Origin: an uncultured Nitrospirales bacterium
GTDB lineage: Bacteria; Nitrospirota; Nitrospiria; Nitrospirales; UBA8639
Assembly (NCBI GenBank): GCA_958295805.1
Contig: OY282373.1
Span: 1,149,001-1,213,000, forward strand
Direction: 5' to 3'
DNA: 64,000 nucleotides
Part shown: positions 55,197 to 63,005 of the stretch, piece by piece
Layout of the letters: every line of letters begins with the position of its first letter
Numbering within the stretch: position 1 is the first letter of the stretch
The notes under the pieces: generated by a model
The model's database searches: none
What the model was told of the DNA's origin: nothing
Seen by the model: the letters and a program-made list of their open reading frames with translations, nothing else
Program-made: the position numbers and the translations under genes

Positions 55197-58100
55197 ATGT
55201 TTCACTTCAATCGTTTTTCCATAAAATCCTGTGCCTTTCTGGGATTGGGAAGCATCCTTGTGCTGCCGTTCTTTTTGCTTCCGATTTCCGGTGCTGAAGC
55301 TCAACAGTCACCACCGATGATTCATAAGACAGGGATGGATCATCAGCCCAATCGGACGATTGAATGGGCTGAACGCTTAAAAGGACAGACGATCGTCGAA
55401 AATGCCCAAGAAGGCAGGGCCGAACGTGCTGCCCTCGTTGAACAACAACATGAGCGATTGATGAAGCAGATGCAGAAGGAAACGTCTGAATCCACGAATA
55501 CGGGCGGATTCAACACGATGTCCATGATGCATCAATACGGCGCCGGAAAAGGAAACTATTTATTGCATTCCGATGCCGACGTTGAACCGGTCTCGCTGAC
55601 CGCCGGGGGAAAATGTCCGGCTACGGCTCCGGTGAAGCATTATGATATTTCTGCCATTAACGTCGAGATTACCTTGAATCAATGGCTGGATTATTACCCC
55701 GGTTACATGTACGTGCTTACCGACAATATCGACAACGTTCGCGAGGAAGAAGAAAAGAATGCCGCAGCCAGAGAATCAGAAGGCCACCATGATCCCGGCG
55801 GCGTGAAAAACGGAATCCAAGGTCAATACATCCAACCGTTGGTGATTCGTGGAAACCAAGGCGATTGCGTGACCATCGCCCTTCGTAATCAATTGGAGTT
55901 CGGCGAAGACGTCAGTCTCCATATCAATGGATCCAGCATGGTCGTCAGTAAAACGGGCCAACCGGCTACCACAACCAATCCTGATGCCATTGCGTATGGG
56001 CTCGAAGAAGAGGAAGAGGAAGAAGCCGAAGCCGAAGGCGATAAAAAAGCCGAAGACAACGAAGCCAAGGATGGCGATGATCGGAGCGTCATTGCCTTGG
56101 AATGGTATATTCATCCTGATACGCAAGAAGGTGGTCGGCAATTTCACAGCTACAGCAACGACCGAGAATTGACAGTGATGGGGCTGTTCGGCGTGTTTGT
56201 TGTGGAACCTGCCGGGTCAAAGTATCTGGAGCCGTTGGGCACTGGTCCTGCCACGCCTGCTGAGAGCGGATGGCAGGTGATGATTGATACTCCCCAGGGG
56301 CCTGACTTCCGTGAGTTCGTGCTGATTTATCATGAAGTAGGCGATGAAGCGTTTCGACCCGTGAACAAACATGGAGACTTCCTCCCACAACGCGATCCTT
56401 TAACCGATGCCTATCGACCCGGGGCTCGGGCACTCAATTATCGAAGCGAGCCGTTCGGGATCAATAACATGCACGTCCAACATGAGTATTTTGGGTTCGA
56501 AGATGAATCCATGGCCTATAGTTCCTATACCTTTGGGGACGCGGGCCCGACGATTCCAAGGAGTTATTTGGGCGATCCGGCCAAGTATCGATTGGTTCAC
56601 GGGGGGTCGGAAGTCTTCCATTCGCATCATCCCCACGGGGGGGCCATTCGGTGGGAGCGCAGTCCGAGAGCCGTTGATCAGATGCCCATGTGGCATAAAA
56701 ATCAGAATGGCCCCGTGAAATATCCCTTGATCCGTGCCAAGTCGGATCGGGTTGACGTCGAAGTGATTGGGCCGTCTGAAGCGTTAGATCTGGAAACCGA
56801 GTGCGGGTCCGGTCTCTGCCAATATCTGGCGGGTGACTTCTTATTCCATTGCCACGTGGCGCATCATTACGTGGCAGGGATGTGGGGCTACTGGCGGGTT
56901 TACAACACTCTCCAGGTGCCTGGGTTCCAAAACGACGTGATGTCCCCTCTTCGTGAATTGCCTGATCGGATGGGGCGTATTTCGGAACCTGTGACTTCGG
57001 ATCAGTTAGTCGGGACGACGGTTGACTGGTTTGGTAAGAAGTTCAGCATTGTCTCCAACGATCAACAGTCGAATTGGAACGCTGCCCCAGCCGTGGTCAC
57101 GATCTATGACTGGGTGGAAATGCAATTGCCGACTCGCGGGCTTCCCGGTCATACGGAAGATGAGATCGGACAACTCAAATCCTATGACGCGACGGTGGTG
57201 GATTGGGTGTGGGACGGGAATCGTGCCATGAGTGAGAAAGAAGGCACGACGGGGAATCCCAAGTACCATCCGGAATGGCAGGGGTATGAGGCAGGAAAAC
57301 GGCGGTCTATCTGGTTCGAGCCGATGACCGGCAAGGTCGCGTGGCCGTGGTTGACGCCTCACTTTGGAAAACGGGCACCGTTTTCGCCGGATCGCAATCC
57401 TGCTCCATGGTTGGAAATGATCCATTTGGATGAAGACGGCCAGCCTTCGGTTGAACCAGCCAAACCTGGTGAGAATGGGCGTTGGAGTCTGTGTCCCGAT
57501 CGGGCTGGTTCTCAAAAGTATAACATTCACTTCATTAAGCTGCCGATTGAGTTGTCAGCGGCCCAAGGTGATCAACCGGCCGTCGTCGACCCGAATGGCC
57601 TGCTCTACGTGGTTCATGAAGAAGAGGAAGCCATTCGTCACGACAATGCTTTGAAAGTGCCCTTGGTGTTCCGTGCCAATATTTACGATTGCATGGATTG
57701 GATATTGACCAGCGAGTGGCTGGATGATGACTTTACGAATTTTCAATCTTCTAAAATCAATACGCACTTCCATTTTGTGCAGTTTGATAATCAAGCCTCT
57801 GACGGCGTGATTTCAGGGTTTTCGTATGACCAGTCCATGCGGCCCTTTACCCAATTCGAGAAGAAAACGGAGAAAGGGTTGCCGGTGCCGATGAACGCCA
57901 AGTTGACCAAACCGGCCAAGAAAGGAGATCGAACCATTCACGTGACGAATGCCGGCCAATACCACGTCGGCACCGTTCTCTTGGTTGGGGCGGACAACGT
58001 CGCAGGCAATGAGGTGAAGCGGATCGTTGCCATTGACGGGAGCGGCGAAGCCGGTGAATCGGCTTCTTCTGATGGAACGTACGTGGTCAGACCCGGCGAT

Positions 58101-60398
58101 ACCTTGAGCAACATCGCGCGTGACCAGGGGACGACGGTCGACGCATTGAAGGAAGTCAATGGCCTTGTTGATGTCAACGTTCTCTCGATTGGGCAAAAAC
58201 TCCAGATTCCAGGGTCTGGAGGGAGTGGTCATGGAGAGCCCATGCCAGCCGTCGGTGGTCCGGGGACGATTACCTTCAAAAAGCCCTTGGCCCATGACCA
58301 TCCGGTGGGCGATATTGTGACGGTGGAGTTCGTCCGGCAACGGTTCTGGGCTGATGCCGACGTGGGTTCCGTGTTCTGTCATGACCATGCCTTTGGTGGA
58401 ACAACGTGGCCGCATGGGGCGGTGTGCTCCTTCCTGATTGAGCCGTTTGGCTCCACTTGGCATGATCCGGTGACGGGTGAGGCTAAACGGACCGGCCCGG
58501 TCATGGATATTCATACGGTGGAACCCGTGGGCTATGGAGTGAGCGGGAGTTTCCGTGAATTGATGGTGCAAATCATGGATACGGTTCCCCACACGGTCAA
58601 CGTCGTCACGGCGGGGAATCCTCCCGGGCAGCCCGTCGAAGTGGCGTTGGAAGCCGGACGCACCGTGTCGTTCCAAATGCCCCCGAACGACGTGATAAAA
58701 ATGACGCCTATGCCTTTCCTCAACGGTGGAACGCATACGACGGGTGGGGCGTTGAATTTCCGTGCTGAACCTTTTGCGCAACGGTTGGCGAATGCCCCGG
58801 ATGCGTCGCAGCTTTTCAGTAGTACGATTCACGGCGATCCCAGCACGGTGACGTTGCGGGCGTATCTGGGTGACGCCATCGTGTTCAGGCTCATTGACGT
58901 GACCATGAATGAAAGCAACGTCTTCACCGTGTCCGGTCATCACTTCCTGACCGAACGGTACGCGGGTGACGCCAATCGGAAGAATTCCATTCACATCGGC
59001 ATTGCCGAACGATACGACTTGGTCGTGCCACAGGCTGGTGGTCCAAGGCTCCAGCCTGGGGATTACATGTATTTCAATGGCCGGAGTTCCAAGCTGTCCG
59101 AAGGCTCGTGGGGCGTGATTCGGGTATTGGATAAAGAAGTGCCCGATTTGCAACCCTTGCCCAATGCTGCCTTTGGAGGCCCGGGGATCAAGAAGCCGTT
59201 GCCAGTGTGTCCGGAGGAGGCACCGGTGAAAAGCTTTAACGTGGTGGCCATTGATTTTCCCCAGATGACCTTCAATCCAAACGTGGAAGAAGCCATTGAA
59301 GTTGACTTTGAACGAACCATTGAAGTTCGAAACCCGGATGCCAAGATCTACGTCTTGGAAGAAGAAGTGGCCAAGGTCGCTGGAGAATTCCAACCCATGC
59401 CGCTTACCTTACGAGCCAACGTCGGCGATTGTTTGAAAGTGAAGCTTACCAACAACATGAAGGAAAGCCGGGCGTCTTTTTCAGCCTTTGCTCTGGCCTT
59501 CGATCCCAAAGACTCTCAAGGGGTCAACCTTGGCAATAATCCTGGAGATCAAACCGTGGCTCCGGGGGAAAGCCGGGTCTACACCTATTATGCGGATCCG
59601 TTGGTCGGGGAAACGCAATCCTTGGTGTGGGATTGGGGGAACGTGGCGATGAATCCGCGAAATGGGTTGTTCGGCGGGATTGTCATTGGTCCCAAAGGGT
59701 CCCAATATCGTGATCCGAAGACAGGAGCGGATGTTTCTCAGAAAAATAGCTGGGTGGCCGACGTGATCGTTGATCGGACGATCCCCGGTAATGAACATCG
59801 GGCCAACTATCGTGACGTGGCCCTGTATTTCCAGGATGAAGACAACATTATCGGGACGAGTTTCATGCCCTACGTCCAAAACGTAGCGGGCCTGATAGGG
59901 GTCAATTACCGAAATGAACCCTACTTGTATCGTGAGGAACAAGGGTGTTCCCTGGGCCGGATGTTCCAGCCCTGTAACGTTGATGAGCCGAATGAACCCG
60001 CAACGCCTATTATTGAGGCCCATGCGGGCGACCCCGTTCGGATTCACGTGTTTGGTGCCAGCAATGAACAGAACGGCATGTTTACCCTGGAAAAACATGA
60101 ATGGCCGATTGAGCCGTTCATGCTTGGTGCCGACCACATCAGCGTGGTGGAATTTGCTGGTTCAGAAGGTATTGACGTCTTTGTGCCTTCTGCCGGTGGC
60201 CCTTATGCCTTGACGGGAGATTACGTGTACAGCAACGCTCGCTTGCCGTATTCTCAATCGGGGCAATGGGGATACTTCCGGGTTCTGTCGAAGAACGATC
60301 AGAGGGTTCTCCCGCTCGGTCGAGCCGCGCCTGGAGTCAAAGAAGCGAAGGCGGCTAAGCCTGAACAAGGTCGCGTTCAGCCAATCGCATTCAAATAA
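55197..60398 (+). CDS. Giant secreted multicopper oxidase with internal LysM domain
   Basis: This 1733-residue protein has a signal peptide (FLGLGSILVLPFFLLPISG, then AEAQQ). Several cupredoxin-like domains follow. Copper motifs are HSHHPH (residues 475-480, HxxHxH) and HCHVAHHYVAGM (551-562, HCHxxxHxxxxM), a full type 1/type 3 set, and then THFHFVQFD (H857, H859) and CHDHAFGG (H1062, H1064), two HxH pairs. The HxH pairs come after the last-domain motifs, the reverse of laccases. Residues about 270-295 are a Glu/Asp/Lys-rich stretch, and about 961-1006 form a LysM domain (TYVVRPGDTLSNIARDQGTT). The C-terminal third has two or more cupredoxin-like domains without clear copper ligands. The enzyme should be periplasmic and oxidise metals or organics with O2; a manganese oxidase such as MnxG is one candidate relative. 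Confidence 0.85.
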   Translation: MFHFNRFSIKSCAFLGLGSILVLPFFLLPISGAEAQQSPPMIHKTGMDHQPNRTIEWAERLKGQTIVENAQEGRAERAALVEQQHERLMKQMQKETSESTNTGGFNTMSMMHQYGAGKGNYLLHSDADVEPVSLTAGGKCPATAPVKHYDISAINVEITLNQWLDYYPGYMYVLTDNIDNVREEEEKNAAARESEGHHDPGGVKNGIQGQYIQPLVIRGNQGDCVTIALRNQLEFGEDVSLHINGSSMVVSKTGQPATTTNPDAIAYGLEEEEEEEAEAEGDKKAEDNEAKDGDDRSVIALEWYIHPDTQEGGRQFHSYSNDRELTVMGLFGVFVVEPAGSKYLEPLGTGPATPAESGWQVMIDTPQGPDFREFVLIYHEVGDEAFRPVNKHGDFLPQRDPLTDAYRPGARALNYRSEPFGINNMHVQHEYFGFEDESMAYSSYTFGDAGPTIPRSYLGDPAKYRLVHGGSEVFHSHHPHGGAIRWERSPRAVDQMPMWHKNQNGPVKYPLIRAKSDRVDVEVIGPSEALDLETECGSGLCQYLAGDFLFHCHVAHHYVAGMWGYWRVYNTLQVPGFQNDVMSPLRELPDRMGRISEPVTSDQLVGTTVDWFGKKFSIVSNDQQSNWNAAPAVVTIYDWVEMQLPTRGLPGHTEDEIGQLKSYDATVVDWVWDGNRAMSEKEGTTGNPKYHPEWQGYEAGKRRSIWFEPMTGKVAWPWLTPHFGKRAPFSPDRNPAPWLEMIHLDEDGQPSVEPAKPGENGRWSLCPDRAGSQKYNIHFIKLPIELSAAQGDQPAVVDPNGLLYVVHEEEEAIRHDNALKVPLVFRANIYDCMDWILTSEWLDDDFTNFQSSKINTHFHFVQFDNQASDGVISGFSYDQSMRPFTQFEKKTEKGLPVPMNAKLTKPAKKGDRTIHVTNAGQYHVGTVLLVGADNVAGNEVKRIVAIDGSGEAGESASSDGTYVVRPGDTLSNIARDQGTTVDALKEVNGLVDVNVLSIGQKLQIPGSGGSGHGEPMPAVGGPGTITFKKPLAHDHPVGDIVTVEFVRQRFWADADVGSVFCHDHAFGGTTWPHGAVCSFLIEPFGSTWHDPVTGEAKRTGPVMDIHTVEPVGYGVSGSFRELMVQIMDTVPHTVNVVTAGNPPGQPVEVALEAGRTVSFQMPPNDVIKMTPMPFLNGGTHTTGGALNFRAEPFAQRLANAPDASQLFSSTIHGDPSTVTLRAYLGDAIVFRLIDVTMNESNVFTVSGHHFLTERYAGDANRKNSIHIGIAERYDLVVPQAGGPRLQPGDYMYFNGRSSKLSEGSWGVIRVLDKEVPDLQPLPNAAFGGPGIKKPLPVCPEEAPVKSFNVVAIDFPQMTFNPNVEEAIEVDFERTIEVRNPDAKIYVLEEEVAKVAGEFQPMPLTLRANVGDCLKVKLTNNMKESRASFSAFALAFDPKDSQGVNLGNNPGDQTVAPGESRVYTYYADPLVGETQSLVWDWGNVAMNPRNGLFGGIVIGPKGSQYRDPKTGADVSQKNSWVADVIVDRTIPGNEHRANYRDVALYFQDEDNIIGTSFMPYVQNVAGLIGVNYRNEPYLYREEQGCSLGRMFQPCNVDEPNEPATPIIEAHAGDPVRIHVFGASNEQNGMFTLEKHEWPIEPFMLGADHISVVEFAGSEGIDVFVPSAGGPYALTGDYVYSNARLPYSQSGQWGYFRVLSKNDQRVLPLGRAAPGVKEAKAAKPEQGRVQPIAFK

Positions 60399-60536: not shown

Positions 60537-61448
60537 ATGACTGATCGGATGTTGGGTGTATGCTTGGCGTTTCTCTTTTTGGCGTCACCGGGTTGGGCCT
60601 ATGAGGAAATTGCCGTTGCGAATGGCGGCACCATCAAGGGTCGCGTGACGGTTCACGGCAATAGCCCCAGGCCCATGGCCTTTAATTTAGTGACGATTCC
60701 CGATGCCGTGTATTGTGGACGGATCTCCACGGGTACGGGTTGGCGAATCGTGGAAGATTTTCTCATTGGTCCGGATGGAAGCCTCAAGGATGCGGTCGTG
60801 ATGCTGGAAGGGGTCACCAGGGGAAAAGCGTTTGATTTGCCGAAAGTCCGCATTGAAGCCATGGATTGCGATTTTCTCCCGTTTGTCAACGTGTTGCGTG
60901 ATCAAGATGAAATCACCGTGATTAACATGGATCCGGTTGAACATGATATTCAAGGATACGAAACGGCGAGAGTCCGAGGGGCCAGAGTGTTGTTTAACAG
61001 ACCATTGCCCATGAATCCTTTTCACAGGGTGTTGGGACTGGTGCATAGCCATCAGCACTTGCCCGGCCAGCCCATGGTTCAAAAAGTTCACCTCAGAAAA
61101 GGGAGAAACCTTTTTGTGATGCAGTGCGGGTTCCATCCCTATATGTTCTCGTGGGGGGTGGTTGTCAATAATCCCTACTATGCGATTACCAAGGAAGACG
61201 GACTCTTTGAACTCACGGACGTTCCCCCTGGAGACTATGTCTTGAAAGTGTGGCACGCGGGGATGAAAACATATTTAGAACAACGCGTCGCAATAGCGCC
61301 TGACAGCACGGTGACGGCACATTTTACATATGAGGCACCACAGGGACGCCGCAGTGTGCATGAAATGCATGAAAACCCGCATTTTGGCATGGAGTTGCTC
61401 GGTGAGGGCGTCGAAATTGTGCCTTCTCTTCGATTGCAGAAACCCTGA
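60537..61448 (+). CDS. Secreted cupredoxin-like protein with carboxypeptidase-regulatory-like domain (copy 1)
   Basis: This 303-residue protein has a signal peptide (MTDRMLGVCLAFLFLASPGW, then AYEEI). A first beta domain, GGTIKGRVTVHGNSPRPMAF, is of the carboxypeptidase-regulatory or Cna_B type. A cupredoxin-like domain follows with His136 in NMDPVEHDIQGYE and Cys197, His200 and Met203 in MQCGFHPYM, the ligand set of a type 1 copper site. A third part (FELTDVPPGDYVLKVWHAGM) is again a Cna_B/regulatory-like fold. The next gene is a paralogue, 15 bases on. It follows the multicopper oxidase and may carry its electrons or help in copper handling. Confidence 0.75.
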   Translation: MTDRMLGVCLAFLFLASPGWAYEEIAVANGGTIKGRVTVHGNSPRPMAFNLVTIPDAVYCGRISTGTGWRIVEDFLIGPDGSLKDAVVMLEGVTRGKAFDLPKVRIEAMDCDFLPFVNVLRDQDEITVINMDPVEHDIQGYETARVRGARVLFNRPLPMNPFHRVLGLVHSHQHLPGQPMVQKVHLRKGRNLFVMQCGFHPYMFSWGVVVNNPYYAITKEDGLFELTDVPPGDYVLKVWHAGMKTYLEQRVAIAPDSTVTAHFTYEAPQGRRSVHEMHENPHFGMELLGEGVEIVPSLRLQKP

Positions 61449-61463
61449 GAACAGGAAACGACG

Positions 61464-62369
61464 ATGAGCCGGACGATCACAACGACCCTGGGCCTTTTGC
61501 TGATCTGCGTTTCCTCGGGTTGGGCTTATGAAATTCGAGAAGTGGAAAACGGCGGATCCGTTCAGGGAACCGTCACGCTTTCCGGACGCCTACCCGACCC
61601 GAAAGCGTATAATTTGGTCACCTTTCCGGATCCCGAATATTGCGGGCGTATTTCCAACGGCAGGGGGTGGCGGCTGCTCCGTGACTTTATTGTGGATGAG
61701 GAAAACAGGGTTCAAAACGTGGTCGTCTTAGTGGAAGGCGTTAAGGTCGGCAAACCGTTTTCTCTCTCCGTTCCGCGTGTCGAAGCACGGGATTGCCGGT
61801 TCCTGCCGTTTACGACCGTCGTCAGAAGCGGACACGGCGTCGAAGTGGTGAACATGGATCCCGTGATGCACGATATTCAAGCCTATGAGACTTCAACTGC
61901 GACGGGGACCAGGGTGCTCTTTAATTCACCGCTTCCCTTTAATCAACGTCATAAACGGGGCGATTTGCATGCGATGCACGACCATAAACCGGGAGAGTCT
62001 TTCGTTCGACAATTCCAGTTGAGCAAAAAACGCCGAACCTTTGTCATGCAGTGCGGATTTCACGCCTATATGGAAAGTTGGGCCATTGCGGTTGATAATC
62101 CGTACTACGTCCTGAGCGACGAGCACGGGCGATTTTCCATCAATGACATTCCACCGGGAACGTATGACCTTCGGGCGTGGCATCCAAGCATTAAGAGGGT
62201 GGTCAAACGGGAAGTGACGATTCAACCGAAAAGAGCATTGACCGTCGATTTTCAGTTACCGTCTCCAGGAAGACGAAAGACTGTGCTCACGGTTCGGACT
62301 CCTCCCCGATTCACCCCCGCTGCACTGGGTCGAGAATTTACGATCGATCCGATTCTTGAGCGTCAGTAA
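61464..62369 (+). CDS. Secreted cupredoxin-like protein with carboxypeptidase-regulatory-like domain (copy 2)
   Basis: This 301-residue protein is a clear paralogue of the previous one, with the same order of domains. The signal peptide is TTTLGLLLICVSSGWAYEIR. The proposed copper ligands fall at the same residue numbers, His136 in NMDPVMHDIQAYE and Cys197, His200 and Met203 in MQCGFHAYM. RFSINDIPPGTYDLRAWHPS is the final beta domain. The sequence between them has drifted, so the duplication is not recent and both copies were kept under selection. It is followed by the 62373 gene after 3 bases, in one operon. Confidence 0.75.
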   Translation: MSRTITTTLGLLLICVSSGWAYEIREVENGGSVQGTVTLSGRLPDPKAYNLVTFPDPEYCGRISNGRGWRLLRDFIVDEENRVQNVVVLVEGVKVGKPFSLSVPRVEARDCRFLPFTTVVRSGHGVEVVNMDPVMHDIQAYETSTATGTRVLFNSPLPFNQRHKRGDLHAMHDHKPGESFVRQFQLSKKRRTFVMQCGFHAYMESWAIAVDNPYYVLSDEHGRFSINDIPPGTYDLRAWHPSIKRVVKREVTIQPKRALTVDFQLPSPGRRKTVLTVRTPPRFTPAALGREFTIDPILERQ

Positions 62370-62372
62370 TGG

Positions 62373-63005
62373 ATGATCGTCTTGGTTCCTCGTCAATCTC
62401 AATCAGAGTGGTTTCCGTTTCTTCTTTTGTTGTGTTCCGTCTTCTTCTTCAACCTGTCCGATGACAACGTTTCTGCCGCGGATCTGGAATTTTCAGCCCG
62501 CCTCAAGTGGAGAACCGACGGGAAAACGTCACACGCCCAGTTGTTTGTCAAAGACGACCGGTATCGAGTGGAGCATCTTGGTGGCATCAAAACGGATGTG
62601 GGTTACGCGACCGTCACCATCGTTCGGCTGGATAAACAGAAGGTGTGGTACGTCATTTCGAAACAACGGTTGGTCGTGGAGGTGCCTTTGACCTTGGATT
62701 ACGTGCTGCCCCTTTCCGTGAACCTGGAGGGCGAGGTGTCAAGGACTCGGATCGGTGATGCGATGGTGGGGAACCAGGAGGCCACGTTGTTTGAAGTGGT
62801 GGTGGTCCGGCACGATCGTCGAGAAACGTATTATGAGTGGGTCGATGAATCACGAGAATTGTTGCTCAAGTTAGTCAGTCAAGATCGAGATTGGTCGGTC
62901 GAATATGATCGGGTTATTCAATCGAAACAGCCGGCGTACTTTTTTGAAACCCCATTAGGGTACCGGAAATTCGAAGCGACTGAAAAGCGGGTTGAGGAAG
63001 GGTAA
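62373..63005 (+). CDS. Secreted protein, LolA/DUF4412-like fold candidate
   Basis: This 210-residue protein has a signal peptide (FPFLLLLCSVFFFNLSD) and then a beta-rich mature part beginning ADLEFSARLKWRTDGKTSHA. A strand pattern with VKDDRYRVEHLGG, VWYVISKQRLVVEVPLTLDY and ETYYEWVDESRELLLKLVSQ resembles the one-sided half-barrel of LolA or of DUF4412 proteins. It lies within an operon of secreted proteins, and the next gene starts directly after its TAA. Function unknown; binding a small or lipid ligand is a guess. Confidence 0.55.
   Translation: MIVLVPRQSQSEWFPFLLLLCSVFFFNLSDDNVSAADLEFSARLKWRTDGKTSHAQLFVKDDRYRVEHLGGIKTDVGYATVTIVRLDKQKVWYVISKQRLVVEVPLTLDYVLPLSVNLEGEVSRTRIGDAMVGNQEATLFEVVVVRHDRRETYYEWVDESRELLLKLVSQDRDWSVEYDRVIQSKQPAYFFETPLGYRKFEATEKRVEEG

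Follow-up and report, generated by a model that had tools for sequence, protein, structure and literature searches.

A LysM domain nested in a probable six-domain, MnxG-like multicopper oxidase of a Nitrospirales bacterium

The window analyzed here, a stretch of 64,000 nucleotides from an uncultured Nitrospirales bacterium, contains a gene for a multicopper oxidase (MCO) in which a LysM domain lies among the copper-binding motifs. This locus raises the questions of what kind of oxidase the gene encodes, whether the order of its copper motifs is as anomalous as it looks, and what a LysM domain might do inside such an enzyme.

A probable six-domain oxidase with a single copper set

The MCO open reading frame (55197..60398, + strand; all coordinates are those of the window unless stated otherwise) was translated without an internal stop into 1733 residues, as an earlier note on this DNA had claimed, and occurs only once in the genome, a single contig of 2.9 Mb. 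An antisense open frame of 526 amino acids (57813-59393, - strand) lies within the gene and is probably a by-product of codon usage. Residues 1-36 (55197..55304, + strand), ending in LPISGAEA, look like a Sec signal when judged by eye, which would imply export of the protein. The best solved relative of the MCO was MnxG (PDB 9bxa, E 2.4e-68), in agreement with the profile searches, and the MnxG model NF041487 was the sole multicopper-oxidase model to match in an NCBIfam search; the hint in the earlier note at MnxG-type oxidases was therefore right. Membership of the NF041487 equivalog was rejected by score (111.6 bits vs a cut-off of 3100), the 1894 positions of this model being matched in three stretches. 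Sequence searches against MnxG gave several shifted matches, and identity with a Priestia MnxG-like protein was approximately 28%, with matches between repeated domains. The alignment showed six cupredoxin anchors (D1 to D6) along the chain, with copper ligands retained in D2 and D3 only; D1, D4, D5, and D6 lack a complete copper set. By translation, alignment, and profile and structure-database matches, we identify the protein as most probably a bacterial six-domain MCO, kin to the manganese oxidase MnxG.

All four copper motifs were found at exactly the residues claimed for them. In D2, H475-S-H-H478-P-H480 (56619..56636, + strand) supplies one ligand each to the type-1 (H475), type-2 (H478), and type-3 (H480) coppers, labels that we assign from family knowledge, while H551-C552-H553-xxx-H557-xxxx-M562 (HCHVAHHYVAGM; 56847..56882, + strand) holds the type-3 ligands H551 and H553 and the type-1 ligands C552, H557, and M562. 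The two HxH pairs are located in D3, namely H857-F-H859 (57765..57773, + strand) and H1062-D-H1064 (58380..58388, + strand). The residue just before the second pair, C1061 (58377-58379; FCHDH), adjoins a type-3 ligand, and this position is Cys in nearly all LysM-bearing and some LysM-free genes and Trp in most paralogs. All 12 copper ligands were invariant among 76 aligned sequences, a set with paralogs, homologs from further families of the class, one Streptomyces protein (L108), and the Priestia MnxG-like protein (L109). Given that this invariance is far beyond chance, the MCO is probably enzymatically active. Two AlphaFold models built with 24 close homologs reached pLDDT values of 32.5 and 31.9 and are too poor overall to place the trinuclear histidines, so that their meeting in one site rests on homology.

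The earlier note had described the motif order as permuted, and the order is indeed the reverse of that in three-domain laccases, where both HxH pairs lie in the first domain and HxxHxH and HCH in the last. One could suspect a genuine circular permutation, with a laccase or ceruloplasmin as the starting point; we consider this extremely improbable and reject it, since the six anchors run along the chain with ligands kept only in D2 and D3, and since the order is the norm of the class. Earlier work placed the type-1 copper of all bacterial six-domain MCOs examined in domain 2 and their trinuclear cluster at the junction of domains 2 and 3, with a model in which another of the three ancestral sites has survived (PMC3600357, 2013); our alignment likewise placed the type-1 ligands in D2 and the trinuclear ligands only in D2 and D3. 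The same order occurs in MnxG (9bxa) and in the Priestia protein, with which all 12 ligands align. The motif order thus reflects which of the three ancestral sites was kept and is not a permutation. Homologs that combine a conventional order with absence of LysM had been envisaged; LysM is indeed missing from 49 of the 76 aligned homologs, but these share the order of the MCO and not that of laccases. Ceruloplasmin and hephaestin resemble this class in having six cupredoxin domains (PMC3600357), but in them domains 1 and 6 form the trinuclear site and as many as three type-1 sites occur, whereas the MCO is predicted to have its trinuclear site between D2 and D3 and has one type-1 site.

The LysM domain: position, distribution and selection

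The claim that a LysM domain lies between the two HxH pairs was borne out by Pfam: PF01476 matched residues 962-1005 (58080..58211, + strand) over positions 1-43 of 43 (E 1.3e-14, 54.3 bits vs a gathering cut-off of 20.9). On the basis of the alignment and local strands in the AlphaFold model, this LysM, flanked by linkers rich in glycine and serine, is nested within a single hairpin of a small beta domain that is inserted into D3 at residues 885-1043 approximately (57849..58325, + strand). The strands of the insert domain had block pLDDT values of about 46-74, and the LysM, at about 70-78 locally, showed the strand-helix-helix-strand order. Nitrospiria homologs have an extra domain of about 80-90 residues between the HxH pairs, with or without LysM, which is absent in MnxG 9bxa; MnxG, at 1227 amino acids, thus differs from the MCO in having neither insert domain nor LysM. 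The LysM of the MCO is canonical, like that of LytE and other wall enzymes. LysM domains of wall hydrolases are usually terminal or in tandem, whereas the MCO has one copy nested inside an oxidase domain.

The named relatives of the host are Nitrospirota MAGs, most of them labelled Nitrospirales or Nitrospira and one (DOFS01000002) as isolate UBA8639, and from these names we infer that the host belongs to the family UBA8639. We take the host to be marine and presumably sponge-associated, a sponge link being suggested by the names of some MAGs. UBA8639 corresponds to lineage IV nitrite oxidizers (PMC12342949). The MCO family was present in 59 of 60 sampled relatives and, across 198 sampled genomes of the phylum, in Nitrospirales and related families of the class, with weak matches beyond; it is nearly universal in Nitrospirales. 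Many genomes have multiple paralogs, and a single match, of the LysM form, was found in the host and in three genomes of the same genus (G010, G012, and G013). In a family-wide search in which matches covering the whole query were counted, 31 of 49 UBA8639 genomes carried the LysM form with the domain at the same spot, so that a chance or assembly artefact can be rejected. Among the groups sampled, the LysM form was seen solely in UBA8639, and in the two plasmid-borne homologs from outside Nitrospirota that were read, L108 and L109, no LysM was found. Most paralogs, the sampled sister families, and some orthologs lack the LysM, which is therefore unnecessary for catalysis.

A tree computed after removal of the LysM columns requires four changes of the trait, consistent with one or two gains and with losses in the orthologs L055 and L059, where the residues at the junction look like the last part of the LysM linker. 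One further gene (L026:709-5805) combines a body of the LysM-free paralog type with a LysM that resembles the one in the LysM-bearing gene of the same genus, which suggests that its LysM arrived by gene conversion. In two genomes (G028 and G030), LysM-free genes (L071 and L072) occupy the same syntenic locus. By pooled counting over pairs that are not independent, dN/dS was about 0.11 for the LysM, 0.04 for the core, and 0.20-0.25 for the LysM linkers, and the LysM is thus under purifying selection. Given this value, the losses, and the LysM-free genes at the same locus, the LysM is maintained by selection and yet dispensable over longer time scales.

The LysM most likely tethers a periplasmic MCO to peptidoglycan, the binding being predicted from sequence. 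The wall-tied multi-cupredoxin oxidase proposed in the earlier note is plausible in view of the canonical LysM, its purifying selection, and the signal-like N-terminus; the anomaly of motif order that had been part of the proposal did not hold up. It is unlikely that the LysM is instead a tolerated passenger, or a binder of some other GlcNAc polymer (chitin, an exopolysaccharide, or a host glycan) rather than of the cell's own peptidoglycan: the losses in L055 and L059, the variable linkers, and the ability of LysM to bind chitin besides peptidoglycan (PMC4004799) would fit such a role, but purifying selection on the domain and its presence in all ten sampled genera of one family argue against it. 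In the open-access literature searched, nothing relevant was found on bacterial MCOs with LysM, nor anything on MnxG with cryo-EM, and the gain of a LysM in a known MCO class seems to be a variant previously undescribed in that literature.

Operon partners and the predicted reaction

The MCO gene is followed by cpd1 (60537..61448, + strand), an operon partner encoding an amicyanin-like blue-copper domain (H136, C197-x2-H200-x2-M203) together with a CarboxypepD_reg domain, by cpd2 (61464..62369, + strand), which encodes a second protein of this kind, and by orf210 (62373..63005, + strand), whose 210-amino-acid product has a signal-like N-terminus and no Pfam match and whose synteny extends across the family and into sister families. 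The order MCO-cpd1-cpd2-orf210 is conserved across UBA8639, recurs in L075 from a sister family, and is similar in L078, and a type-1 copper signature with amicyanin-like spacing was present in 76 of 78 aligned cpd1/cpd2 proteins. A third, distant cpd relative is located at L084:4367-5161.

We estimate at roughly 70% the probability that the MCO is a periplasmic, MnxG-like six-domain oxidase with one copper set in D2/D3, a LysM wall tether, and blue-copper partners, with a reduced metal as its most likely substrate. An outside substrate would donate single electrons to the type-1 copper (C552, H475, H557, and M562), from which they would cross a His-Cys-His bridge to the trinuclear site between D2 and D3, where O2 would be reduced to water with four electrons. 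The LysM in the D3 loop would hold the enzyme to peptidoglycan and leave the catalytic core untouched, and the cpd1 and cpd2 proteins probably exchange electrons or copper with it. We put forward metal oxidation as a hypothesis, with Mn(II), Cu(I), or Fe(II) as the most likely candidate substrates and a role that would lie in the control of metals or oxidative stress rather than in energy gain.

Candidate functions in the light of known systems

Periplasmic MnxG-like MCOs, similar to the manganese oxidase of SG-1, have been described in Nitrospina gracilis and Ca. Nitrospira defluvii, within a conserved NXR-associated cluster that also has cupredoxins and bd-like oxidases, and a defence against reactive oxygen based on Mn(III) was tentatively proposed for them (PMC3578206, 2013). 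No LysM is mentioned in that description, and the proteins probably correspond to the LysM-free members that are general in Nitrospirales. That the MCO is specifically a manganese oxidase, an MnxG-like producer of Mn(III)/Mn(IV) at the wall that might, for instance, scavenge superoxide, is possible but doubtful. The published idea for the nitrite oxidizers and the position of MnxG as best solved relative favor it. However, the Bacillus Mnx complex needs MnxE and MnxF (PMC5622069), and two small proteins of the Priestia locus, MnxE/MnxF-like by position only, had no match in the host genome in a search run without a positive control. Given this and the identity of only ~28% with the Priestia protein, kinship with MnxG is not enough to infer a manganese substrate. 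In addition, the authors of a study on lithotrophic manganese oxidizers of the same phylum disfavor their MCOs for that growth (PMC9040806).

A role in copper handling, with CueO-like periplasmic oxidation of Cu(I) and the blue-copper proteins as copper carriers, appears rather unlikely. It would account for the operon shared with two type-1 copper proteins, and CopC genes lie beside the Streptomyces relative and near the Priestia homolog; on the other hand, a copper exporter is absent among the neighboring genes read, and the six-domain architecture is not CueO-like.

Less probable still is that the MCO serves the nitrite-oxidation chain as an additional electron sink, passing electrons from the operon cupredoxins to O2. 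Two cytochrome bd-like oxidases and two cytochrome c genes, together with DUF420 and two sulfatase-modifying-factor-like genes, are located about 10-20 kb downstream of the MCO, and the NXR-associated cluster of Nitrospina and N. defluvii points the same way; but MCOs have no known way of conserving energy, an MCO goes unmentioned in the N. marina paper, and nxr was not found adjacent to the MCO, the sole NxrB-like Fer4_11 match of the genome lying far away. Because that match sits at the terminus of the one contig (G000:C1:2904108-2904365), the assembly may have split the nxr region or may lack part of it. The bd-like oxidases, the two FGE-sulfatase-like genes, and the cytochrome c genes span L084:8631-18550 (genome about 1220.6-1230.5 kb). 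More speculative than any of these functions is the view that, in lineage IV nitrite oxidizers, an MCO widespread in Nitrospiria has become a sacculus-bound periplasmic layer, fed by two dedicated cupredoxins, that consumes O2 or oxidizes metal and is tied to nitrite metabolism.

For the reading that we prefer, the metal-oxidizing and wall-tethered MCO, a wall-anchored enzyme with two blue-copper partners would give a handle on both the site of action and the electron feed, and the occurrence of orthologs with and without LysM at the same locus allows a natural comparison. The text of a 2025 comparative genomics study of Nitrospirales makes no mention of copper or multicopper oxidases (PMC12342949). 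Upstream of the MCO, the window also contains a polysaccharide-type gene cluster (5779-28391) that encodes a carbamoyltransferase, a heparinase II/III-like protein, a sugar nucleotidyltransferase, and a SIS/glutamine amidotransferase protein.
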